Assembly: GCF_002934625.1 (NCBI RefSeq) | Contig: NZ_PTJD01000001.1 | Span: forward strand, 248,001 to 312,000 | Direction: 5' to 3' | Length of the DNA: 64,000 nucleotides | Origin: Kineococcus xinjiangensis | GTDB taxonomy: Bacteria > Actinomycetota > Actinomycetes > Actinomycetales > Kineococcaceae | In this document: positions 49,151-59,890 of the stretch, one piece after another | Layout: each line of letters begins with the position of its first letter | Numbering within the stretch: the first letter of the stretch is position 1 | Notes under the pieces: model-generated | Seen by the model: only the letters and a program-made list of their open reading frames with translations | What the model was told of the DNA's origin: nothing | Databases searched by the model: none | Made by a program: the position numbers and the translations under genes

Positions 49151-49677
49151 TCCGCCGGCGGGGCCGCCTCGGCTGAGAGGGGTGGTCCCGCCCGCGGATC
49201 GAGGGAGCGCTCCGGACCGACCGTGGTCGGGCCGGCTGGGCGGCGATGACCGTTCTTCGTGCGGCGCCGGACCGGGTGCTCGGTGAGGTGCAGCGCCGCC
49301 ACCGTGACGTCGTCGACCTGGACGCGGACCTGTACCACGTGCTGCCCCTGAGAGCGTCTACGACCGGACACGGTGTCGGACGGGGAAGCATGCACGCTCG
49401 GGAGCGTGGTGGACGACCTCGACGTCGTGCGGGAGCTGGCCGCCGGACGACCCGATGAGGAGGGCGAGAAGGCGGAGGTGGTCGTCTGGCACGACCTGGC
49501 GCACGTCATCGGCGTGCTGCAGCGACTCGCGGCGCTCCACCTTCCCCAGCCTTGACACCGTGACCGCGTCAACGGCGTGTGGTGGGTCCGCGTCGGCTCG
49601 TACAGCGTCGCGAGACCCACCGCGTCATGCCCGACAGCGGATGAAGACCCGAGACCAGAGCCCTGGCGATCGACAGG
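49151..49677. other. Gap without a confident gene
   Basis: Short plus-strand frames 49246-49458 (VTVLRAAPDRVLGEVQRRHRDVVDLDADLYHVLPL...) and 49373-49555 (VVDDLDVVRELAAGRPDEEGEKAEVVVWHDLAHVIGVLQRLAALHLPQP, 60 aa) look like coding pieces in two frames. Together they could be a decayed small gene. No RNA gene or insertion sequence is visible. This gap is the left boundary of the repeat-laced accessory region. Confidence 0.4.
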
Positions 49678-50103
49678 TCACTGCGCGGCGTCGCCGCCTG
49701 CTGCGAGGTCGCGCTGGCGCTGCTCGTGCAGGCGGGTCGCCTCCTCCGGTGTCAGTGGAGGCTCGGTGATCCCCTGGCGGGCGAGCCGGTCGCGGTGGGC
49801 CTGCGCAGCCTCCTCTGCGGGCACAGGGCCGATGCACAGCCAGGTGGCGCCCTCGGGGAGGGTGTCGGCCTCTGGAGGTGGGCAGGGCGGCACCGGGCCG
49901 TTCTGCGGAGGGACGCCGGTGGCCGGGGCACTCGCGGTGCCCGGCGTCGCGGTCTGCGAGTCCACCTCCGCCGCGGGGTCCTGTGCGCTGGCTGCCGGCG
50001 CGGGTGAGCTCGACTGAGCGCCAGGCACGTTGCTCGGACTGTTGCACCCGCTCAGCGCGATCAGCGCGAGTGCCGGCAGCAGGGCGCGACGCATCTTCTG
50101 CAT
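49678..50103 (-). CDS. Small putative lipoprotein
   Basis: A 141-aa protein beginning MQKMRRALLPALALIALSGC, a type II signal peptide with lipobox LSGC. After a Ser/Ala/Pro-rich linker there is a small domain, PCPPPEADTLPEGATWLCIGPVPAEEAAQAHRDRLARQGITEPPLTPEEATRLHEQRQRDLAAG, with two cysteines. No family is recognised. An upstream start (50142) would add a non-signal-like tail. Confidence 0.7.
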   Translation of the reverse strand: MQKMRRALLPALALIALSGCNSPSNVPGAQSSSPAPAASAQDPAAEVDSQTATPGTASAPATGVPPQNGPVPPCPPPEADTLPEGATWLCIGPVPAEEAAQAHRDRLARQGITEPPLTPEEATRLHEQRQRDLAAGGDAAQ

Positions 50104-50239
50104 GCGCCTGAGGTGGTGCGGCACGGACGCGGAGACGAGCATCCACCCATCCTCTCGGCTCCGACCCCGTGTCCGCTGAACACGCGCTGCGGGACTGGAT
50201 CAGGTCATCCCTCCGAGCGGAGAAGACCTCCGACGGGTC

Positions 50240-50310
50240 GAGGATCGCGCCGTCATCGCGCCGACTGCGGACGTTCGGAGGGGCGGGTCGCGTGGCTCAG
50301 TGATCGTCTG
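50240..50310 (+). repeat. Degenerate cassette repeat (weak copy)
   Basis: ACTGCGGACGTTCGG followed by CTCAGTGATCGT resembles the left half of the strong copies (TTGAGGACGTTCGCC...TGATCG). It abuts the truncated 3' end of the NUDIX gene. Confidence 0.35.
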
Positions 50311-50653
50311 GATGGCTGAGGACGCCCTGCAGCATCTGCTGGTGCTGAGGATGTGCGCAGGTGCAGCTCGGCGCCGGACCCGCACCGGCCAGGGGCAGCC
50401 GGGAAGCGGGCTCCCTGTCATGGTCGCGGACGTCGATGCGCAGCTCCTCGCGCAGCTCTCGGCGTAGGGTCTCCACCTCGGACTCTCCCGGTTCCAGGTG
50501 TCCTCCGGGCAGAGCCCAGGCCTTGGGGTAGGCGCGGCGTCGGGCGCTGCGCAGGGCGAGCAGCACGCGGTCTGCCTCGATCAGGTCTCCAGCGACCACT
50601 CGGTGCACCAGCGAAGACAACCAGAGGATCGCGGCACGTCCACGCCGGTTCAT
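50297..50653 (-). CDS. NUDIX hydrolase, C-terminally truncated
   Basis: NUDIX enzymes hydrolyse nucleoside diphosphates linked to another group. The 118-aa product has a complete NUDIX box, GHLEPGESEVETLRRELREELRI, in the context AYPKAWALPGG. After it comes only DVRDHDREPASRLPLAGAGPAPSCTCAHPQHQQMLQGVLSHPDDH, which lacks the expected C-terminal strands and helix. Neither other frame restores them convincingly. The stop falls in a copy of the dispersed repeat, suggesting truncation at a recombination boundary. Confidence 0.72.
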   Translation of the reverse strand: MNRRGRAAILWLSSLVHRVVAGDLIEADRVLLALRSARRRAYPKAWALPGGHLEPGESEVETLRRELREELRIDVRDHDREPASRLPLAGAGPAPSCTCAHPQHQQMLQGVLSHPDDH

Positions 50654-50726
50654 GCCGGGGCCCGCGCTGCGGCGGTGGCGGACGTCGGTCGGCTGATCGA
50701 TCGAGGCTCGGTGGCAGCATGGTGCG

Positions 50727-51611
50727 ATGCCGTGGTGGGCGCCCTGGAGGCGGCAGGAGGATGCACCGGCCGTCGCCGCGTCCGCACCTTCGGCGGGGCC
50801 GCCTGCCGACCCGCTGGACCTGCTGGGTACGGGCGGGCATGGGGAGCGGGTGCTTCCGGTGCCGTTGCAGGCCGGGGACCTCGTGCGCCCCGATGGAGGA
50901 GAACTGCACGAACCGGTGCTGTGGCTGAGCCGGGGCCCGGCCGAGCCCGGGGCGTGGGCGGCGCTGCGGGCGGAGCACGCCCGGACGGGGCTGTGGCCGT
51001 TGTTGTTGCACGGCCTGGGTGAGGGCGAGGACGAGCGACGGCCGTGGGTCGCGGGGGAACTGAGCCCGCCCGCGGAGCGGTCGACCCCGGGAGATCACTC
51101 CGCGGAGGCGGTGCTGAGCACGTGGTGGGAGTGGCACGGCTGGGAGGACTGGGGCGATCCCGATGTCCTGCAGTCCATGGCCCCCTACGACCGGCGGTGG
51201 CCGGGTCTGGCGCCGGCGCTGCCGCTGCGCGATGACCCCGACCGGGTGGCTGACGCCCGTGCCGAGGAACTGCGCCGAACGCTGCGTCCTGCGCCACGGC
51301 TGGGGCTGGTGGCCGCCGAGCGCGGAGCCGAAGCCCTGACCGCCGTCGGCTGGGGCGGGCCGATGCAGTTCGTGGACGACATCGCCGAACTCTCGGCGGT
51401 GGTGCGCTCCTGGGAGGAGCGCTTCGGCGCTCGGGTCGTCGGCGTGGGTTTCGCCCACCTCCACCTCAGCGTCGCAGCGCCTCCCCGGACCTTCGAGGAA
51501 GCGCTGCCGATCGCAGCCGAGCACGTCGTCTCTCACGACGAGAACACCGACCTGCACCTCTGCGCCCGCTCCCTCGTCGACGCGCGCTCCTGGTCCTTCT
51601 GGTGGGACTGA
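50727..51611 (+). CDS. DUF4253 domain protein
   Basis: A 294-aa protein with a variable Pro/Ala-rich N-terminus and a C-terminal DUF4253 domain: GLWPLLLHGL, LGLVAAERGAEALTAVGWGGPMQFVDDIAELSAVVRSWEERFGARVVGVGFAHLHLSVAAPPRTFEEALPIAAEHVVSHDENTDLHLCARSLVDARSWSFWWD. The function of DUF4253 is unknown. It stands alone between repeat-containing gaps. ATG 50727 is used; an out-of-frame ATG lies at 50719. Confidence 0.82.
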   Translation: MPWWAPWRRQEDAPAVAASAPSAGPPADPLDLLGTGGHGERVLPVPLQAGDLVRPDGGELHEPVLWLSRGPAEPGAWAALRAEHARTGLWPLLLHGLGEGEDERRPWVAGELSPPAERSTPGDHSAEAVLSTWWEWHGWEDWGDPDVLQSMAPYDRRWPGLAPALPLRDDPDRVADARAEELRRTLRPAPRLGLVAAERGAEALTAVGWGGPMQFVDDIAELSAVVRSWEERFGARVVGVGFAHLHLSVAAPPRTFEEALPIAAEHVVSHDENTDLHLCARSLVDARSWSFWWD

Positions 51612-51894
51612 CCCGCCCCGGCTGCACCATCCTCGTCAGCGTGCTGCGGTTGCTCGACGCGGCGTGGGGACGCTTCCTCGAGGAGCGGGGACGCTGGAGC
51701 AGTTCATCCGAGCAGGCGACCTGCCGGAACTGCTGGCCTCAGCCCGCAGTGAGGTGGACGAGTCGATGGATCGCCGCCCCTGCGTGCGCGACGGCTGACG
51801 AGCCGCGCTCGCTCATCGGGGAGGGCTCAGGCGGCGTGGTCGCGCGCAGCCGGCGTCACGACCGGCAGATCGGTTCGCCTGGCAGACTTCGGCG
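51612..51894. other. Gap with a gene fragment and a weak repeat copy
   Basis: A short open stretch reading TLEQFIRAGDLPELLASARSEVDESMDRRPCVRDG-stop (about 51691-51798) looks like the C-terminus of a lost gene. CGCTCGCTCATCG at 51805 matches the left edge of the strong repeat at 56250. Confidence 0.35.
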
Positions 51895-52530
51895 ATGGCT
51901 GTCCACCACCCTGCGACGATCGTCCCCACCAAGCTGGAACTGCTGCAGGCATGGGTACCCCACCAGCCGTGGCTCGGCGGCGCCGACGTCTCCACCGTCA
52001 CCAGGCTCGGCTCCTACCGCTTCGACGACCCCGACGGCGAGGTCGGGATGGAGACGCACCTGCTCTCCACCGACGACGGCCGGGTCCTGCAGGTGCCGCT
52101 GACGTACCGAGGTGCTCCGAGGGTGGGGGCCGAAGGCTCGCTGATCACCACCATGACGCACACCACGCTCGGGAACCGCTGGATCTACGACGGCTGCCAC
52201 GACCCCGTCTACGTGACCGCCCTGGTCAGGGCGATCCTCACCGGCGGCCGCCACGCCGACCTGTACGCCGCCACCGACGGAGGACTGGTGCTGGAACCGG
52301 CGACGACACACGTGCGGGGCAGCGGATCCTGGTCCTCGGCCGACGTCCCGGCTCTGACGGCGCCGGTAGTCAGCCACCACGGGACGACGACGACCATCCA
52401 CGCCGGCGTCAGGCTCACCCTGCCCCGGGTCCTCGTCGCCACGACTCCGGCGGCCGACGCGTCGCTGAGCGGGACGTGGCCCGGCCAGGAGACCCCCGTC
52501 GTGCTCGCGACCGTGGACGGCTCATCCTGA
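51895..52530 (+). CDS. Maltokinase N-terminal-cap-like protein
   Basis: A 211-aa protein, MAVHHPATIVPTKLELLQAWVPHQPWLGGADVSTVTRLGSYRFDDPDGEVGMETHLLSTDDGRVLQVPLTYRGAPRVGAEGSLITTMTHTTLGNRWIYDGCHDPVYVTALVRAILTGGRHADL. This matches the stand-alone actinobacterial proteins related to the N-terminal cap of maltokinase (CG0192-like). No kinase domain follows, so it is not itself a maltokinase; its role is unknown. ATG 51895 is the start. Confidence 0.75.
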   Translation: MAVHHPATIVPTKLELLQAWVPHQPWLGGADVSTVTRLGSYRFDDPDGEVGMETHLLSTDDGRVLQVPLTYRGAPRVGAEGSLITTMTHTTLGNRWIYDGCHDPVYVTALVRAILTGGRHADLYAATDGGLVLEPATTHVRGSGSWSSADVPALTAPVVSHHGTTTTIHAGVRLTLPRVLVATTPAADASLSGTWPGQETPVVLATVDGSS

Positions 52531-52564
52531 CCGGACGTGCGAGTGGTGTTGCGGTCATCGCTGT

Positions 52565-52645
52565 GGTGCAGCGTGATCGGACACCCCGGATCGCGCACTG
52601 AGTACATCGATTGCGGATGTTCGGCCGTCGGTGATCGTGCAGTCT
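52565..52645 (+). repeat. Degenerate cassette repeat (weak copy)
   Basis: Contains GGATCGCGCACTGAG and then GATTGCGGATGTTCGGCCG followed by GTGATCGTGC; both parts match the strong copies (TGATCGCGCACTCAG; ATTGAGGACGTTCGCCG...TGATCGCGC). It lies between the maltokinase-cap-like and hydrolase genes. Confidence 0.45.
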
Positions 52646-52651
52646 GTCCCG

Positions 52652-53347
52652 ATGGTGACGATCTTCGTGCACGGTGCCGGTCGTGGGGGTGCCGCCGCGT
52701 GGTCCGCCCAACGCGATGCACCGGGCTTCGCCGGGGCGGTGTGGCTGGACTGGCGGGAGCAGGTGACCACGCCCGGCCCACTCGCGGCGGACTTCGTGGA
52801 CAGCCAGCTCGAGGCGATCCTCGCCCGTGCATGGACGTCCCTCGACGTGGTGGCTCACTCCGGTGGAGCGCTGGCGGCGCTGCTGGCCGCCCAGCGATCG
52901 CCGGGCCGGGTTCGCAGCTTGGTGCTGCTGGAGCCGGCCTGCTTCGCCCTGGCCCGTGGCCGCGCGGCGGTGGAGGAGCACGTCAGCGCCATGGCCCCGG
53001 CCCTCGCCCGCGCCGGCGACCCCGGCGTCGACGACGTGGAGTACGCCAGGCGCTTCTTCGCCGCCCTGGGAGCACCCGCGCCACCGGCCGAGACGCCGGA
53101 GCATCTGCTGGCGCTGCGACGGCTGCGCACGGTACCGGCCCCCTGGGCGGTCGACCTGGACCCGACGGTGGTCGAGCAGACGCCGACGCTCGTCATCACC
53201 GGGGGCTGGCTACCGCTGTACGAGGAGACAGCCCAGGCCCTGGCGGAGCTCAGCGCCAGGCACGAGGTGCTCACCGGCCACGGTCACCGCCCCCAGGACC
53301 ACCCCGACGCCAACGCCCTCATCCGCGCCTTCCAGGCGGCTCCGTGA
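52652..53347 (+). CDS. Alpha/beta-fold hydrolase
   Basis: A 231-aa serine-hydrolase-fold protein. VTIFVHGAGRGGAAAW is the oxyanion-loop strand, DVVAHSGGALAALLAA carries the nucleophile serine (H-S-G-G), TLVITGGWLPLYEETAQAL is the acid strand and LTGHGHRPQDHPD supplies the catalytic His. Substrate unknown. Start at ATG 52652, in phase with the first beta strand. Confidence 0.85.
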   Translation: MVTIFVHGAGRGGAAAWSAQRDAPGFAGAVWLDWREQVTTPGPLAADFVDSQLEAILARAWTSLDVVAHSGGALAALLAAQRSPGRVRSLVLLEPACFALARGRAAVEEHVSAMAPALARAGDPGVDDVEYARRFFAALGAPAPPAETPEHLLALRRLRTVPAPWAVDLDPTVVEQTPTLVITGGWLPLYEETAQALAELSARHEVLTGHGHRPQDHPDANALIRAFQAAP

Positions 53348-53370
53348 ACGCACGCAGGTCGGAAGACGCG

Positions 53371-53450
53371 TGCGTCTGCGGCCGCTCGTGATCCCGACCG
53401 CCAGCGCCATGAGCTGGCAGCAATCGTGTCGCAGTCCGCCTCTGGCGTTG
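53371..53450 (+). repeat. Degenerate cassette repeat (weak copy)
   Basis: GGTCGGAAGACG, then GCGGCCGCTCGTGATCCCGACC and a CATGAGCTGG motif. It resembles the GCTCATGATCGCGCC core of the strong copies, with several mismatches. Confidence 0.3.
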
Positions 53451-53464
53451 GGGAGGATGGCGAG

Positions 53465-54160
53465 GTGGATCCCGTGCTCGCCGCTCGCGCCGTGGTCGAT
53501 CACCGCTACCCCGAGGCGGTGGCAGCGGTCTTGGCCGGTAGCAGCGCCCGCGGAGAGGCCACGCCCACCTCAGACCTTGACATCGTGGTCGTCCTCAACG
53601 GCAGCGGCGGATCTTTCCGCGAGACGCTGCTGCACCAGGGGCAGGTGGTGGAGGTCTTCGCCTACACCGGCGATGAGGTGCGCCGATGGTGGGACATCGA
53701 CGCCACCGCCGGCCGCTGCACCCTGGCCCACATGTGCGCCCACGGCCTGCTGCTGCACGGCGAGCAGACCGGGCAGCGCATGCAGCACGACGCCCGCGTC
53801 TTCCTCGCCGCCGGACCACCGCCTGTCAGCGGCGAGGAGTTGCTGCTGCGTCGCTACCGCCTGACCGGGGCCGTCGACGACCTCCGCGACGCCACCGACC
53901 CAGGTGAGCGGCAGGTGATCGCCGCCGCGGTGCTTCTGGAGGCGGCGGAGCTGCACCTGATCACTCAGCGGCAGTGGCGCGGGCAGGGCAAGTGGCTCCT
54001 CCGGCGCCTGCGCGCCGCAGCCCCAGCCCTGGCCGAGCGGCTGCTGCAGGCGCACCACCACGTCACGAGCACCGGCGACGCACAGCCGATGGTGGACGCC
54101 GTGGAAGGCGTCCTACTCGACAGCGGGGGACGCCTGGCCGAGGGCTACCGACGCGGCTGA
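53465..54160 (+). CDS. Nucleotidyltransferase-domain protein
   Basis: A 231-aa protein with the polymerase-beta-like nucleotidyltransferase motif VLAGSSARGEATPTSDLDIVVVLNG (GS...DxD) at residues about 19-43 and FRETLLHQGQVVEVFAYTGDEVRRWWDID. A helical C-terminal domain follows (QVIAAAVLLEAAELHLITQRQWRGQGKWLLRRLRA). It resembles kanamycin-nucleotidyltransferase-like or AadA-like proteins in layout but substrate is unknown; a resistance role is not demonstrated. GTG 53465 follows a GGGGAGG site. Confidence 0.82.
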   Translation: MDPVLAARAVVDHRYPEAVAAVLAGSSARGEATPTSDLDIVVVLNGSGGSFRETLLHQGQVVEVFAYTGDEVRRWWDIDATAGRCTLAHMCAHGLLLHGEQTGQRMQHDARVFLAAGPPPVSGEELLLRRYRLTGAVDDLRDATDPGERQVIAAAVLLEAAELHLITQRQWRGQGKWLLRRLRAAAPALAERLLQAHHHVTSTGDAQPMVDAVEGVLLDSGGRLAEGYRRG

Positions 54161-54200
54161 GCGCCGCCCTCACCGACCCTGCCGCCTCCGCGAGGACAGT

Positions 54201-54259
54201 CCGCTCTTCGACAGTTGAGGACGTTCGCCGGCTGTCATGATCGCGCACTCAGCGCGGCG
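54201..54259 (+). repeat. Cassette repeat A (strong copy)
   Basis: Contains TTGAGGACGTTCGCCGGC followed by TGTCATGATCGCGC and ACTCAGCGCGGCG. It is nearly identical to copy B at 56250 over about 50 bp. Lies between the nucleotidyltransferase gene and the convergent minus-strand gene. Confidence 0.8.
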
Positions 54260-54274
54260 TGGGCGTGCGTTGCG

Positions 54275-54760
54275 TCAGACCAGACGCAGGACGCGGTCCT
54301 CCAGGTCGTCGAGGTCCTGCAAGGTCAGGACGGTCTCGGTGAGGGGGAGGCCGGCGTGCGGCCATTCCAGCGCGATGCCCACCCGCCCGTCGCGGGGCAG
54401 CTCGTCGATCCAGTAGGAGGCATCGACGCTGAAGGCGTCGTCGCCGCTGTTGTGCATCGCCCCGCGGGTGTGCGCCGGGCCGGCGTGGTCGTTGACGGTG
54501 ACGTGGAGGTGGGGGAAGGAGTAGGGGTTGTCCTTGGTGGGGCCGGGGTAGCGGCGCACTCGGCCGTAGGACCAGCTTCGGGCGTCGTTGGCACGCTCAC
54601 CCACTGCGCGGTACGCGAGCATCAGGTGCAGCCCACTGGGGTAGGCGACGACAGCTCGTAGGCCAGCGGCGATGTCAGGGGCACGGCTGAGGATGAGGGG
54701 GCCGTGCACGATTACCCCGAGGTCGTGGGGTGGTCTCCCGTGCCAGCTGTGCTCCTCCAT
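54275..54760 (-). CDS. Hypothetical protein
   Basis: A 161-aa protein, MEEHSWHGRPPHDLGVIVHGPLILSRAPDIAAGLRAVVAYPSGLHLMLAYRAVGERANDARSWSYGRVRRYPGPTKDNPYSFPHLHVTVNDHAGPAHTRGAMHNSGDDAFSVDASYWIDELPRDGRVGIALEWPHAGLPLTETVLTLQDLDDLEDRVLRLV. No signal peptide or membrane helix. Strand-rich, possibly beta-sandwich; I do not recognise a family. ATG 54760 is chosen; the frame extends through repeat E upstream, which is not likely to be coding. Confidence 0.78.
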   Translation of the reverse strand: MEEHSWHGRPPHDLGVIVHGPLILSRAPDIAAGLRAVVAYPSGLHLMLAYRAVGERANDARSWSYGRVRRYPGPTKDNPYSFPHLHVTVNDHAGPAHTRGAMHNSGDDAFSVDASYWIDELPRDGRVGIALEWPHAGLPLTETVLTLQDLDDLEDRVLRLV

Positions 54761-54850
54761 GACACGAGCATGGCAGTCATGCGGAAGGCACCTGGTTCCT
54801 TGATCTCCGGGTGCGGCGACTGCCCGTCCGACCTGGCGAGGTGTCACTGG

Positions 54851-54895
54851 TCGCTCATGATCGCGCCCCATCAGCGGCAAAGGCGGACGTTTCGC
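54851..54895 (+). repeat. Cassette repeat E (strong copy)
   Basis: CGCTCATGATCGCGCC followed by CATCAGCGGCAAAGGCGGA and CGTTTCG. About 80% identical to copy F at 56931. Lies between the hypothetical gene and the anti-sigma gene. Confidence 0.75.
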
Positions 54896-54906
54896 GCTGG
54901 AGCCGG

Positions 54907-55629
54907 TCATGGGGCGTTCGGCTCGTGGGGAGCCATCCACTCCGGGGTGCCGGAGGTGAAGGACACGGTGCTCCAGTACTCCTGCTGCTGAAGCGTCAGG
55001 CCGGTGTCGGTGGGCTTGCCCGGTGGGCTGAGGAACACGTGGAAGGTGCGGGAGTCGACCTCCGCGCTGGTCATGATCTCCCAGTCGGTGCCCACGCTGT
55101 GGCGGCAGGTGGCGAGGTCGCCGACGCAGATGGTGACCCCTGGGCCTTCGGAGTCGATGGTGATGAGCGGGTGGCCGTTGGAGACGTTGGCCTGCATCGT
55201 CCCGATGTGCGGCGGTAGCTGCTCGGGCACGACGAACGCGTCCGGGTAGCGCCGCATCGACTCCCGGATCTGGCCGCGCCAGTCATGGCTGTCGATGCCG
55301 GGACGATCGGGGGCATCGTCTGGCAGTGGCACGGGCAGCGGCAGCGTGAACTCACCGGCGGTGAAGTCCTCCGGGCTCGTGGTGGCGGTCGTGGTGGAGG
55401 GGACGGCCGGCATCAGCTGGCGGGTGCTGTCGTCGGTGCCTGGTAGCGCCAGGATTAGTGCGGTCGTGGCTACAGCGGTGGAGGTCGCTGCCGCGCTCCA
55501 GGCCAGGCGGTGACGACGCCTGGCTCGCACCGCGCCGGTCAGTGCTGCCTCTGGCAGCCACGCTGCTGCCTGCACCTCGCGGGTGTCGTCGTGCATGCGC
55601 TGCCGCAGCTGCTGCTCGAAGTCGATCAT
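54907..55629 (-). CDS. Putative anti-sigma factor (single-pass membrane protein)
   Basis: A 240-aa protein: cytoplasmic N-terminus MIDFEQQLRQRMHDDTREVQAAAWLPEAALTGAVRARRRHR, one transmembrane helix (LAWSAAATSTAVATTALILALPG, residues about 42-64), and an extracytoplasmic domain with two cysteines (ICVGDLATCRHS). No zinc-binding HxxxCxxC motif is seen. The role is inferred from its ATGA overlap with the upstream ECF sigma gene, which is the usual sigma/anti-sigma arrangement. Confidence 0.78.
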   Translation of the reverse strand: MIDFEQQLRQRMHDDTREVQAAAWLPEAALTGAVRARRRHRLAWSAAATSTAVATTALILALPGTDDSTRQLMPAVPSTTTATTSPEDFTAGEFTLPLPVPLPDDAPDRPGIDSHDWRGQIRESMRRYPDAFVVPEQLPPHIGTMQANVSNGHPLITIDSEGPGVTICVGDLATCRHSVGTDWEIMTSAEVDSRTFHVFLSPPGKPTDTGLTLQQQEYWSTVSFTSGTPEWMAPHEPNAP

Positions 55630-56123
55630 CGTGCCGCCTCCCGTGCCTTGTCCTCCACGCTCATCAGCTGCCGTAGCCGGCTCAGCCCGCGAGAGCAGTT
55701 GCTCTTCACCGTCCCCGCCGAGCAGCCCAGCTCCTCAGCGATACGGGCCTCGGACCAGTCCTCGAAGTAGCGCAGCACCACCACCGCACGCTGACGCGGC
55801 GGCAGCTGACGCAGCAGCGCCTCGACCCCGGCGCGCTGGGCCCGTGCCTGCGTGCCATCGCTGACCGGCTCGTCGTGCCACTGCTGCAGCTGGACCTCAC
55901 GCACGCGACGGCTACCGATGCGCCAGCGGTCGGTGATGCGACGCGCCATCACGACTCGGGCGTAGGCGTGGGGGTCCTCCACCCGCCGCCAGTGCCGGTA
56001 CGTGCGCTCCAGCACGTCCTGCACCAGGTCCTCGGCAGCGCCTCGCTCCCCGGTCAGCAACAGCGCCGTGCGCAGCAGCTGCGTCGTGCTGCCCCGGACG
56101 AACTGCTCGAACGAGTCCTCCAC
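55626..56123 (-). CDS. SigE-family ECF RNA polymerase sigma factor
   Basis: A 165-aa two-domain sigma factor: region 2 FEQFVRGSTTQLLRTALLLTGERGAAEDLVQDVLERTYRHWRRVEDPHAYARVVMARRITDRWR and region 4 LRQLPPRQRAVVVLRYFEDWSEARIAEELGCSAGTVKSNCSRGLSRLRQLM. This is the SigE/sigma-24 type common in actinobacteria. GTG 56123 has an AAGGAG site. It is followed by the overlapping membrane protein gene, its likely anti-sigma. Its targets are not visible. Confidence 0.92.
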   Translation of the reverse strand: MEDSFEQFVRGSTTQLLRTALLLTGERGAAEDLVQDVLERTYRHWRRVEDPHAYARVVMARRITDRWRIGSRRVREVQLQQWHDEPVSDGTQARAQRAGVEALLRQLPPRQRAVVVLRYFEDWSEARIAEELGCSAGTVKSNCSRGLSRLRQLMSVEDKAREAAR

Positions 56124-56249
56124 CAGGCTCCTTCCATAGCGCCTCGCCAGTACAAGACGACGCCGGAAGCACTCCGGTTGTCACCTGGACGAGACAAGCC
56201 CACAACGCCAGTGCCACTGCATGGTCAAGCGTCCCTTGCACCTCGCCGA

Positions 56250-56320
56250 CCGCTCGCTCATCGACAATTGAGGACGTTCGCCGGCCGTCATGATCGCGCA
56301 CTCAGCGCGGCGAAGTCGGA
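56250..56320 (+). repeat. Cassette repeat B (strong copy)
   Basis: ACCGCTCGCTCATCG, then CAATTGAGGACGTTCGCCGG, CCGTCATGATCGCGC and ACTCAGCGCGGCGAAGTCGG. The fullest copy of the family. TTCGCCG and CGGCGAA form inverted arms around the TCATGATCGCGC core. Confidence 0.8.
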
Positions 56321-56461
56321 TGCTGAGCTCAACACGCATCGGGGTCGGTGGTGCAGGGTGAACGGTGACTACATGTGGCAGCCAGCTCCTCCGGGACAGT
56401 CCCTGGTGTCTTCGATGCGGAGAGCGCCTCACCTGAGCATGATCAGGAATGGAGGTCGCTG

Positions 56462-56890
56462 ATGGGCACCCCGCTGATCGGCGCGTTGAACGTCCGAGCC
56501 ATCTACGCGTATGAGGTGGAAGACGCTTCAGCCCTCCCGGGACTGCGCATCCTGGGGGCGGTGATGGGCCTGCACGGCATCGCCATGAACGGTGGACTGG
56601 TCGTCGGAGGCATCGAGAACCTCTTCTTCAACGAGAGGATGCACGCGGTCGACGATGCGATCGAGGGCTTCCGATGGCTCGGGCTGGCAGACGTCGCCGC
56701 GCTCGTCGCCCGTGCCCGGGACGAGTACCTGCGCTTCCGCCCAAGCGGCTGGGAGGACATCTCCGACGAGGACGCGCTCATCTGGGACCAGCTCGACACC
56801 GCGTTCTTCGAGATCGCCGCCGATGAACGACTCGAGACGGCGGTGCCAGCCCGCCTGCAGGACATCGCGCCGGAGCTGCAGCCGTCCTGA
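56462..56890 (+). CDS. DUF4375/DMP19-like small protein
   Basis: A 142-aa acidic protein, MGTPLIGALNVRAIYAYEVEDASALPGLRILGAVMGLHGIAMNGGLVVGGIENLFFNERMHAVDDAIEGFRWLGLADVAALVARARDEYLRF...FEIAADERLETAVPARLQ. The MNGGL...N motif, the following leucine-rich helix pair and the acidic C-terminus resemble DUF4375 (DMP19 C-terminal) proteins; this is a tentative match. Start ATG 56462 has a GGAGG site. Confidence 0.7.
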   Translation: MGTPLIGALNVRAIYAYEVEDASALPGLRILGAVMGLHGIAMNGGLVVGGIENLFFNERMHAVDDAIEGFRWLGLADVAALVARARDEYLRFRPSGWEDISDEDALIWDQLDTAFFEIAADERLETAVPARLQDIAPELQPS

Positions 56891-56930
56891 CAGCTGCAAG
56901 ATCACCTCACCACGGCGGGGCGTGGCACGA

Positions 56931-56975
56931 GCGCTCATGATCACGCTTCATCAGTGGCGAAGTCGGAAGTTCGTG
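56931..56975 (+). repeat. Cassette repeat F (strong copy)
   Basis: GCGCTCATGATCACGC followed by TTCATCAGTGGCGAAGTCGG and AAGTTCG. Matches copy E (about 80%) and the right half of copy B. Confidence 0.75.
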
Positions 56976-57019
56976 GGCTGCCCCTCGCCCCTTCCTGACT
57001 CGTAGCCGATCATGCTGGT

Positions 57020-57439
57020 GTGCGATTGCTGAGGGTGTCGACGGCCCTGCTGGTTCTAGTCGCTGGAACATCGTGCAGCTCGCTGTCCTGCACGGATGTC
57101 GGGGCTGACAGTGGGGTGACGTTCGACTTGTCGGCGTTGCCCACCGTCGGGGCACCTTGGGAGGTCACTGCCTGCATCCAGGAGGTGTGCGATACCCGCA
57201 TCGTGCAGCCGGCAGACGGGACTTCCCCCTTCTTCCGCGCTGACGCCTTGACGGAGGACGCGGTTCAGGCGCGGCTGCAGGTCTTGGATGCCTCCGGGGG
57301 GACGGTGATGGACGACACGGTCGGTGTGACTCCTGTCCGCTACCAACCCAATGGGAAGGGCTGCGAGCCGATCGTGTGGCAGGCAGAGATGCTCGTCGGG
57401 GCAGACGGCGTCCTGCGGCAGGTCAAGGCAGCCTCATAG
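57020..57439 (+). CDS. Small exported hypothetical protein
   Basis: A 139-aa protein beginning MRLLRVSTALLVLVAGTSCSSLSC, a signal peptide with a possible lipidation cysteine. The mature part (DVGADSGVTFDLSALPTVGAPWEVTACIQEVCDTRIVQPADG...CEPIVWQAEMLVGADGVLRQV) contains three further cysteines and is beta-rich. No family recognised. GC is visibly lower than in the core genome. Confidence 0.7.
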   Translation: MRLLRVSTALLVLVAGTSCSSLSCTDVGADSGVTFDLSALPTVGAPWEVTACIQEVCDTRIVQPADGTSPFFRADALTEDAVQARLQVLDASGGTVMDDTVGVTPVRYQPNGKGCEPIVWQAEMLVGADGVLRQVKAAS

Positions 57440-57490
57440 ACCAGCGGGGCTTCCAGCCCGGCACCTACACCTGACGCATGTGACCGGACA

Positions 57491-57545
57491 TCCGCAGATC
57501 GGCAATTGAGAGCGTTTGCCGGCTGGTCATGATCGCGCCAGTAGC
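57491..57545 (+). repeat. Cassette repeat C (strong copy)
   Basis: CAATTGAGAGCGTTTGCCGG then CTGGTCATGATCGCGCCAG. Same orientation as the others, between two hypothetical genes. Confidence 0.75.
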
Positions 57546-57701
57546 TCGTCATGGGAGTGCGTCGCGGTGGTGGCTTACGGGTGGATGAAGGTGGATCTGG
57601 CCTAGAGAGCCGAGGGCCTGTGTCACGGTGCTGCGAAGAGGTTGACTCTCGAGGACCCCGGCCCAGCGATGGCCGGGTCTGGCCGTGGATGGAGGAGCGA
57701 A

Positions 57702-58073
57702 ATGGCGGAAAGTCCTGCTCGCCGTCCGGTGTCATGGATTCTGGGGACTGCGGTCGTGAGTGCGGCCGCTGCGGCGGCGTGGCTCACCTTCCCGGCGGAT
57801 GACTCGACCTGGCCGATGCCTGGCGTGCTGCTGACCACGGTGGCGCTCACTGTGGTCGCCAACCTGCGGATCGGTGGCTGGCTCTGCGTTCCGGTCGTCG
57901 TCGCTTCGGTCTTGGTCGGCCTCACGGTGGCCTTGAAGTACCACGGCTACTGGCAGGGGGACATGGGTTCTGTCATGTTCCTCATCGGCACCTACCTGAC
58001 CGCGGTTGCAGTGGTCGCGAGTGTGCTGACGACGATCGTGAAGTACTTGTTCAAGAGCCAGCCTGCATCGTGA
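57702..58073 (+). CDS. Small membrane protein of unknown function
   Basis: A 123-aa protein with about four transmembrane helices (VSWILGTAVVSAAAAAAWLTF; MPGVLLTTVALTVVANL; GGWLCVPVVVASVLVGLTVAL; MGSVMFLIGTYLTAVAVVASVLTTIV). No motif recognised. ATG 57702 follows a GGAGGAG site; the 20 residues upstream in the same frame are not needed. Confidence 0.75.
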   Translation: MAESPARRPVSWILGTAVVSAAAAAAWLTFPADDSTWPMPGVLLTTVALTVVANLRIGGWLCVPVVVASVLVGLTVALKYHGYWQGDMGSVMFLIGTYLTAVAVVASVLTTIVKYLFKSQPAS

Positions 58074-58087
58074 AGCGAGGATCACCG

Positions 58088-58160
58088 CTCGCGGATGCAC
58101 TCCTCGGCGAGCGAGGACGCTCAGCAGCCTTCATGATCGCGCCCGCAGCGCAGCAATTGT
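58088..58160 (+). repeat. Cassette repeat D (strong copy)
   Basis: CGCTCGC...GCGAGCG inverted arms, then GAGGACGCTCAGCAGCC, TTCATGATCGCGCC and CGCAGCGCAGCAATTG. Same orientation. Confidence 0.7.
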
Positions 58161-58215
58161 CGATGTGGCTGAGCGATTCCTGGCTGTGGTCGCATGCGGG
58201 CGGCAGGGTGGGGTG

Positions 58216-58872
58216 GTGACCTCGACATCCCCACCCGAGGCGGTGGGCCCGTCTTCCGGTTCACCACTGCCTCCGCAGGTGCAGGCCACCCTGGCCGCAC
58301 TGGTACCCGACGACGCCCTGACGGAGTCCTACCAGGGTTGGTCGAGGTCGCCAGGTCACCTGGACTACGACTGGGCCGTGGTGCCCAGGTCCGCGGTCTG
58401 GCACCGCCTCGGCTTCGACCCACCCACCCTGCCCAGCCTGGCCGGCGACGCCGTGCGGGAGCACTTCGCGGTGCACGGCCGCTACGGCAAGCCCTCGGAG
58501 TCGAGGCGGTCCGGCGACGCGTGCGCGCTGCCGGTCGCCGTGTTCTACCTGCCGGTGGACCTGCCCTGGGAGAAGGCGCAGTCCGGCGACGCTCTCTCCC
58601 GGGGCGCCACCTTCCTGTGGCTGCACGAGCCCTACGCCGGCCACCCATGGACGGCCGCGGTTCGCTGCCGCAACGAGCGCGATGACCGACGCAGCTTCAC
58701 CGTCGTTGAAGTCGCCGGTGTCCACCTCGGGGTGCAGGTGGACACCTACGGCCTGGCGCAGCTGTCGTGGACCCTGCGCCGAGGAGGCCGCGACGTACGC
58801 GCCATAGTCACCACCAAGCGCGATCCCAGCGCAGCCGTCCAGATGCTCCTCCACGACGGCGTCCTGACATGA
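58216..58872 (+). CDS. Hypothetical protein
   Basis: A 218-aa soluble protein: VTSTSPPEAVGPSSGSPLPPQVQATLAALVPDDALTESYQGWSRSPGHLDYDWAVVPRSAVWHRLGFDPPTLPSLAGDAVREHFAVHGRYGKPSESRRSGDACALPVAVFYLPVDLPWEKAQSGD...FLWLHEPYAGHPWTAAVRCRNERDD. No family, signal or membrane segment recognised. The GTG at 58216 is chosen; GTG 58165 would begin just after repeat D with an unrelated-looking lead. Confidence 0.7.
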   Translation: MTSTSPPEAVGPSSGSPLPPQVQATLAALVPDDALTESYQGWSRSPGHLDYDWAVVPRSAVWHRLGFDPPTLPSLAGDAVREHFAVHGRYGKPSESRRSGDACALPVAVFYLPVDLPWEKAQSGDALSRGATFLWLHEPYAGHPWTAAVRCRNERDDRRSFTVVEVAGVHLGVQVDTYGLAQLSWTLRRGGRDVRAIVTTKRDPSAAVQMLLHDGVLT

Positions 58873-58960
58873 CTCAACCAGCTTCCAACGACGTCGCCCA
58901 TACATCCGCAAACCGACATGAGAGCAAGATCATCCAGCCGCCGAGGCCCTCCACCCGCGC

Positions 58961-59890
58961 CTACGGAACTGGGCGCTCCCCTGGCGAGGCGGTTCGCCCG
59001 TCGCCGGCCGCGAGATCCCGGCCCTCGCTCCGGTCGCCGATCTGCAACGTGGTGCCGCCCGGCCCGAACCACAGCGTCCGCTGCGGGAAGGGGATGGTCA
59101 TGCCGGCTGCGTCGAGGGCCCGCTTGACGGACATGGCCACCGCACTGCGGACGCGCCAGCGGCTCGCCATGTCCGCCGGGTGCCAGTAGCGCACCACGAA
59201 CTCGATCGAGGAGTCGGCGAAGGCGTTGACCCACACGCTCGCGCCGGGCTTCTCGGCGACGCCCTCCGCGGCCCGGCAGGCCTCCAGCAGGACCTGCTGC
59301 GCCTGCTCCAGGTCGGTGTCGTAGGCCAGGCCGACGGTCAGGTCGGTGCGGCTGAACGGCGTGCGCGTGTAGTTGATGATCGGGTTCTTCAGGACCTCCG
59401 CGTTGGGCAGGTACACCCGGAGCCCGTCGTAGGTGGTGAGGACGACGGTGCGCAGGTTCACGTCCTCCACGACGCCCTCGTAGTCGCCGCTGCCGACCTG
59501 CTCGCCGATCCGGAAGGGCCTGCGCAGCTGCAGCAGGATGCCGGCGATGAGGTTCTGCAGGATGTCCTGGGCGGCGAAGGCGATGGCGATGCCGCCGACG
59601 CCGAGCGCCCCGAGCAGGGGGCCGATGCGCACACCCAGGATGCCGAGGGCGTAGACGGCCCCGAAGCAGACGACGAGGATGCTGAGGAAGCGCCCGAGCA
59701 GCCTGCCGATGTGGCGGTCGGCGTCGCCGCGGTCGACGGCGCGGACGAGGATCCAGCGCAGCAGCGCCGCGGCGGCGATGGCCGCGACGAACACGGCTGC
59801 CGAGCGCACCCCCTCGTGCCAGGTGATGTCGCCGGTGACCAGCTCCTCCTCCGCGGCCTGCAGGGCGAGGAGGGACAGCGCGCCCGTCAC
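58961..59890 (-). CDS. Small-conductance mechanosensitive channel (MscS family)
   Basis: A 309-aa MscS channel that releases solutes on hypo-osmotic shock. It has about three transmembrane helices, with the pore-lining GPLLGALGVGGIAIAFAAQDILQNLIAGILLQLRRPFRIGEQV and the beta domain EGVVEDVNLRTVVLTTYDGLRVYLPNAEVLKNPIINYTRTPFSRTDLTVGLAYDTD. A short disordered C-terminus follows. The typical core genome composition returns here, marking the right end of the accessory region. Confidence 0.93.
   Translation of the reverse strand: MTGALSLLALQAAEEELVTGDITWHEGVRSAAVFVAAIAAAALLRWILVRAVDRGDADRHIGRLLGRFLSILVVCFGAVYALGILGVRIGPLLGALGVGGIAIAFAAQDILQNLIAGILLQLRRPFRIGEQVGSGDYEGVVEDVNLRTVVLTTYDGLRVYLPNAEVLKNPIINYTRTPFSRTDLTVGLAYDTDLEQAQQVLLEACRAAEGVAEKPGASVWVNAFADSSIEFVVRYWHPADMASRWRVRSAVAMSVKRALDAAGMTIPFPQRTLWFGPGGTTLQIGDRSEGRDLAAGDGRTASPGERPVP

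Follow-up and report, generated by a model that had tools for sequence, protein, structure and literature searches.

Cassette-like gene arrays bounded by composite dif-like sites in Kineococcus xinjiangensis and other Kineococcaceae

Results

The array and its repeated site

We analysed a 64,000-nucleotide stretch of the Kineococcus xinjiangensis genome (contig NZ_PTJD01000001.1, positions 248,001 to 312,000; hereafter the window, with positions counted from its first letter), in which about 13 small genes with no common theme lie between the gene of an FtsX-type exporter (end 49150) and an MscS gene (58961–59890). Several of the gaps between these genes hold a repeat with the core TCATGATCGCGC, present in the window in five exact copies (54235, 54855, 56288, 57527, and 58131) and one copy with a single mismatch (56935). 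All six are intergenic and on the plus strand despite five minus-strand genes, as the initial annotation of this stretch had described, and a profile of the site scores them at E 6e-5 to 4e-19. At up to two mismatches the window holds 19 matches to the core, where 8.4 are expected (sd 2.8; maximum 15 in 100 shuffles). Genome-wide there are 29 exact copies, and the reversed pattern, taken as a control, does not occur. An Rfam search gave no match, and a search of plasmid DNA with the window region returned coding homology only, for example to DUF4253 in Streptomyces.

The complete site is about 75 bp long and composite, consisting of a dyad (LH), a spacer of about 48 bp, and a half-site (RH). 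LH is dif-like, with the arm CGCTCAT, the centre CGGC, and the arm ATGACCG, and RH is a direct repeat of the second LH arm placed right after GCGGG or GCGGC. The spacer core in the K. xinjiangensis genome is CATGATCGCGC, and copies of the site are about 67–73% identical among themselves. The copies in the window differ in make-up, as four are complete, two consist of the right part only, and the array ends in a lone LH (Table 1). Both edges of the array are defined by matches elsewhere: on the left, 49244–49551 is 88% identical to the array C22, and this match begins exactly at the RH arm GATGACCG; on the right, 58198–58924 is 95% identical to a cassette of the array C16, and the identity breaks off inside the lone LH, at the MscS flank. 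Four further, degenerate copies had been listed in the initial annotation, of which the one at 52589 stands, the one at 50243 stands weakly, the one near 53371 is marginal, and the one near 51805 did not hold up, being a 14-bp LH-like stretch.

Comparison of the site with integron attC sites

Textbooks present integrons as the means by which bacteria store up single genes in ordered arrays. The layout could come from a degenerate classical integron, that is, a cluster of attC sites lacking integron-integrases (CALIN) with an unusual attC and a lost integrase. Such an origin would explain one gene per site, the single direction, and two simple halves with imperfectly complementary ends, of which 63/123 RH ends read GTT. 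The integron boxes, however, are missing, as had been noted at the outset: RYYYAAC occurs at 0/67 left ends, and GTTRRRY at 7/123 right ends where 2.6 are expected. A covariance-type alignment, which the initial annotation had proposed as a check, gave no covariation or consensus fold in either lineage, a test whose power is limited by the conserved arms. The arms show no preference for complementarity within a site, nor within a cassette, where a Hall-type test found the two ends of the same cassette to pair no better than the comparison (4.58 against 4.45 of 7 pairs; p 0.18). We regard the degenerate-integron origin as largely refuted and very improbable. Since a folded single-stranded site finds no support, we read the repeat as a putative recombination site in double-stranded DNA, at which strands would be exchanged at two points.

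Arrays throughout the genome and the family

Sites were searched for with two models, R1, a sequence-only model built from 45 sites, and R2, built from Kineococcus sites. R1 found at least 140 sites in the 4.62-Mb K. xinjiangensis genome (G000), a lower bound from 150 scored candidates, with 134 of them in clusters of two or more, and the window array is one of about 20 such clusters. Neighbours less than 3.5 kb apart lie on the same strand in 113/114 cases, with a median spacing of 751 bp. An even spread of the repeats through the genome had been named in the initial annotation as the pattern that would speak against a cassette array, and we found instead 114 neighbour pairs within 3.5 kb, compared with about 14 expected at random. 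Numerous clusters are cut off where a contig ends, in several cases within an insertion sequence.

Among 149 sampled genomes of the order, only members of the family Kineococcaceae are matched by R1 at E 1e-6. R2 detects arrays in all 12 family genomes, with 12 to at least 148 (about 150) sites each, against a background of 0–2 sites in 13 genomes of the order outside the family. A single three-site array outside the family, in a genome of another family (G146), was spotted by eye in the same sample. The largest arrays are those of G000 and of Kineococcus radiotolerans (G005), which has at least 136 sites. On its third contig, G005 carries a site at the place where the linear plasmid pKRAD01 (NC_009806) has one. 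In pKRAD01 itself (166830–168729; L197), array sites adjoin an annotated aminoglycoside phosphotransferase gene and a haloacid-dehalogenase-like gene, and these are plasmid-borne cassettes.

Cassette boundaries at two points in the site

A DNA comparison of all arrays gave 74 homologous stretches in different places (at least 80% identity and 200 bp). Of the 296 ends of these stretches, 107 are no more than 20 bp away from one of two points in the site, compared with 16 expected (sd 3.8; maximum 29 in 2000 randomizations). Fifteen pairs were aligned at base level, one of which turned out to be outside the arrays. The 5′ boundaries, where they can be placed, are at RH (GCGGG^ATGACCG in Kineococcus; GGCA^TGAGCGGATG in the K. 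xinjiangensis genome), and the 3′ boundaries are either at RH or, in six pairs, at LH directly after CGCTCATCGGC. The DMP19-like unit of the window (56451–56901) is 81% identical to a unit in the Kineococcus genome G009, and a 700-bp C21 unit is 81% identical to a K. radiotolerans unit and flanked by sites in both genomes; both are cassettes common to different genera, as these genomes are classed here. Within K. radiotolerans, duplicated cassettes are 98–99.7% identical.

Because the homologous stretches stop at the two site points, we take the cassettes to be real units of exchange. The same genes in the same order in distant relatives, with no cassette gained or lost, would have spoken against a cassette array, as the initial annotation pointed out; the cassettes instead recur beside different neighbours, and the breaks fall at the site. 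The comparison suggests that the cassettes have been moved by recombination. In none of the 11 relatives was there a close orthologue of the MscS gene beside the array, so the exact locus could not be compared across species. A 93.5% identical stretch common to G000 and G009 (L095/L080) lies outside a site cluster and was dropped as evidence.

A candidate integrase inside the arrays of relatives

The initial annotation reported no recombinase in the window, which holds, and proposed a genome-wide search for the repeat and a linked recombinase. None was seen beside the arrays of G000, which encodes XerC, XerD, their paralogue P0002, and several phage-type integrases. The arrays of relatives contain P0001, a phage-type tyrosine recombinase of 314 residues whose alignment with XerD covers the catalytic residues. 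In 10/10 copies keeping the C-terminus, the P0001 stop codon comes right after an LH dyad, with the gene running against the site direction; these copies come from six Kineococcus genomes (one each in G001, G002, G008, and G011, three each in G009 and G010), and one or more are decayed. An RH-type end lies on the other side of the gene in G008 and G001, and in other copies a further gene intervenes. In G146, a P0001 homologue (71%) adjoins the three similar sites. The closest outside relatives are integrases of Arthrobacter and Gordonia phages (46% identity), and viral contigs gave distant matches only. P0001 is our likeliest candidate for the cassette enzyme.

The scores of XerC, XerD, P0001, and P0002 with the integron-integrase model TIGR02249 (41–126 bits) fall far below the cut-off of 265, which again argues against a degenerate integron; the remaining tyrosine recombinases of G000 were detected by PF00589 only. 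No integrase beside an attI was found at an array end in G000, and in relatives P0001 sits inside the arrays, at LH.

The spacer and the P0001 unit of about 1 kb have both ends in common, and the spacer may therefore be the integrase unit minus its gene. The same likeness would be expected of a miniature inverted-repeat transposable element (MITE) or a repetitive extragenic palindromic (REP)-like repeat that inserts behind genes and is then shuffled by homologous recombination between repeats, and insertion sequences are indeed common in the arrays. Against such a repeat stand the single direction of nearly all neighbour pairs, the clustering of the sites, and breakpoints at two fixed points in a short site. 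Homologous recombination is moreover unlikely because the identity among site copies is too low for it. We consider this explanation improbable.

Other recombinases of the family

A second source of enzymes would be XerC/XerD or P0002, acting on the sites as in the dif modules of Acinetobacter. In geometry (arm, short centre, arm), LH is similar to the 28-bp dif-like sites bound by XerC and XerD, and the centre ATCGACAT is common to LH and a dif-like element of G000. P0002, a Xer paralogue of Kineococcaceae present in G000, is restricted to the family (63–72% identity; next best about 36%), and Acidimicrobiia have remote homologues. A dif-like element, CCGATAATNNNCATTATG, occurs once per genome upstream of P0002, in exactly those genomes that have P0002 and available flank. 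On the other side, G005 has its many sites and nearly identical duplicated cassettes yet no XerC match, P0002, or dif-like element, and the Acidimicrobiia relatives have no arrays. Both observations led us to reject P0002 with its dif-like element as the platform of the arrays. The sites in dif modules alternate in inverted orientation, unlike the direct sites here. Movement by Xer proteins or P0002 is unlikely, if less so than the MITE-like origin. For G000 itself, P0002 must be counted as a serious alternative to P0001.

P0002 (L056:2004–2975) has the palindrome GCATATTCGNCGTTATGC at its start, and the dif-like element lies 0.4–1.2 kb upstream of its orthologues (L137–L144). In some genomes, short GTCCCA/TGTCCCA repeats follow just past this element (L142, L143) and may be accessory binding sites. 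G001, G005, and G011 all lack an XerC match, P0002, and CCGATAATNNNCATTATG and retain XerD; their chromosomes may differ in form or in how dimers are resolved.

Two other candidates were rejected. Serine recombinases (PF00239) occur in 6/12 array-bearing family genomes and not in G009. A homologue of tyrosine recombinases that recurs across many genomes of the family (C7:249028, L174; relatives L166–L173) has mostly Cys or Ala at the catalytic position, which is not Tyr in 7/8 aligned members; it is probably inactive as a recombinase and is possibly a recombinase-derived DNA-binding protein.

Insertion sequences at the sites and features of the window array

An element with the left end TACTTGTTCACTGG was found in four insertions, 4/4 at the same position of the site, right after the RH GCGGC. 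In C27, an IS110-family transposase (PF01548, PF02371) lies about 240 bp inside the element, which would seem to be of the IS110 type and to target cassette sites. It is comparable to the IS1111-attC group known from integrons. The coordinates of these copies and of the features of the window array are given in Table 1.

Table 1. Features of the window array (window positions) and copies of the insertion element. Strand of sites is site orientation.
Feature	Position	Strand	Basis or remark
Entire cassette array	49244–58924	+	Edges from C22 and C16 array matches
Cassette gene, small exported/lipoprotein-like protein, no Pfam family	49678–50142	−	
Degenerate RH half-site	50243–50275	+	RH profile E 0.03
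Cassette gene, NUDIX hydrolase	50297–50653	−	PF00293 E 1e-12
Cassette gene, DUF4253 protein	50727–51611	+	PF14062 E 9e-27; 74% homologous stretch in C2 array
Possible LH remnant, 14 bp, not significant	51806–51819	+	LH profile E 2.5
Cassette gene, maltokinase N-terminal-cap domain protein	51895–52530	+	PF18085 E 2e-26
Degenerate RH half-site	52589–52622	+	RH profile E 0.0017
Cassette gene, alpha/beta hydrolase	52631–53347	+	PF00561, weak, E 0.001
Marginal degenerate site	53345–53414	+	E 0.08
Cassette gene, nucleotidyltransferase	53426–54160	+	PF01909 E 4e-8
Complete site (LH + spacer + RH)	54197–54272	+	Site profile
Cassette gene, no Pfam family	54275–54760	−	
Site right part (core + RH), no LH	54855–54891	+	RH profile E 4e-11
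Cassette gene, membrane protein 3′ of sigma factor; anti-sigma-like by position, no Pfam family	54907–55629	−	
Cassette gene, ECF (extracytoplasmic function)-type sigma factor; two-gene unit with 54907–55629	55626–56123	−	PF08281 E 2e-18
Complete site	56250–56325	+	Site profile
Cassette gene, DMP19-like	56462–56890	+	PF14300 E 7e-12; 81% homologue in array of G009 (Kineococcus)
Site right part, no clear LH	56935–56972	+	RH profile E 0.0004
Cassette gene, small exported protein	57020–57439	+	79% homologous unit in C22 array; ends at sites in both
Complete site	57488–57564	+	Site profile
Cassette gene, small membrane protein	57642–58073	+	
Complete site, weak LH	58093–58168	+	Site profile
Last cassette gene, unknown function	58165–58872	+	95% identical unit in C16 array
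Array-ending lone LH dyad	58903–58924	+	LH profile E 0.43; placed by 95% C16 match stopping there
TACTTGTTCACTGG element copies	C13 (L033:1–92), C22 (L040:1–90), C33 (L206:28–90), C27 (L202:6479–8007)		

Discussion

In the initial annotation the layout was likened to integron cassettes, with the proviso that any recombination system behind it would not be a classical integron, and our results agree with both halves of that proposal. The arrays are probably a cassette system moved by a P0001-type tyrosine recombinase acting on double-stranded LH/RH sites. A unit would be one gene or a small gene group. At its start stands a short arm, which is ATGACCGTGAAGTC in Kineococcus and the TGAGCGGATGTT end in the K. 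xinjiangensis genome, and at its close the inverted arm CGCTCATCGGC, usually followed by the spacer, so that adjacent units would yield the composite site. Strand exchange by the tyrosine recombinase would take place at two points, the middle of the LH dyad and the RH junction, and units would move in and out with all sites keeping one direction. The P0001 gene, which lies between LH and RH where both of its ends can be read, would itself behave as a cassette whose two ends match those of the spacer. In G000 the exchange would likewise have been P0001's work, or still be so from an unassembled copy.

Several points weigh against a system driven by P0001. It is absent from G000, G003, G004, and G005 (E 1e-30; the sample of this protein search did not include G006), a group that includes the two genomes with the largest arrays, G000 and G005; it may have been lost there or lie in assembly gaps, or another enzyme may serve these genomes. 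Some cassettes begin or end away from recognised sites, no excision, circle, or strain-level gain or loss was observed, and the derivation of the spacer from the integrase unit is read from their common ends.

The likeness to integrons and CALINs extends to small unrelated genes at about one per site, one direction, two half-sites, boundaries within the site, and sites in the hundreds as in chromosomal integrons. Unlike them, these arrays have two exchange points, no boxes, no conserved fold, and no IntI that we could find, and their candidate integrase lies inside the array instead of by an attI. The dif modules of Acinetobacter (pdif, XerC/XerD; PMC13141974, PMC6449649) likewise consist of genes between dif-like sites on which tyrosine recombinases act, and they too occur on plasmids, but the sites described here are longer, composite, and direct and form long arrays, which K. 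radiotolerans has though no XerC was found in it. The short tyrosine integrases of Arthrobacter and Gordonia phages are the best outside relatives of P0001, which differs in lying not in a prophage but within arrays. With pairs of a MITE and its parent element, the system has in common a spacer that keeps both ends of the integrase unit without the gene; in contrast to such pairs, this spacer ends gene units in one-direction arrays, and the units are exchanged at its ends.

It is conceivable, if somewhat short of an even chance, that these arrays form a third, independently evolved class of cassettes, in which a tyrosine integrase of phage descent is carried along as one of the cassettes and the repeat of about 48 bp is a gene-less cassette, the smallest unit and the second exchange point. 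The logic is integron-like, the system is not an integron by the features tested, and the odds are fair that it should be ranked as a separate class. We found no description of it in Kineococcus in an open-access literature search, and to our knowledge Actinobacteria are not known for integrons. Finders of integrons based on IntI and attC should miss such arrays. A family-wide counterpart of integrons, with more than 100 sites in several genomes and cassettes on a plasmid and across genera, would, if true, amount to a large unrecognised pool of mobile genes. With its double-stranded dif-like dyads and a seemingly phage-related integrase, it would also make the origin of cassette systems testable.

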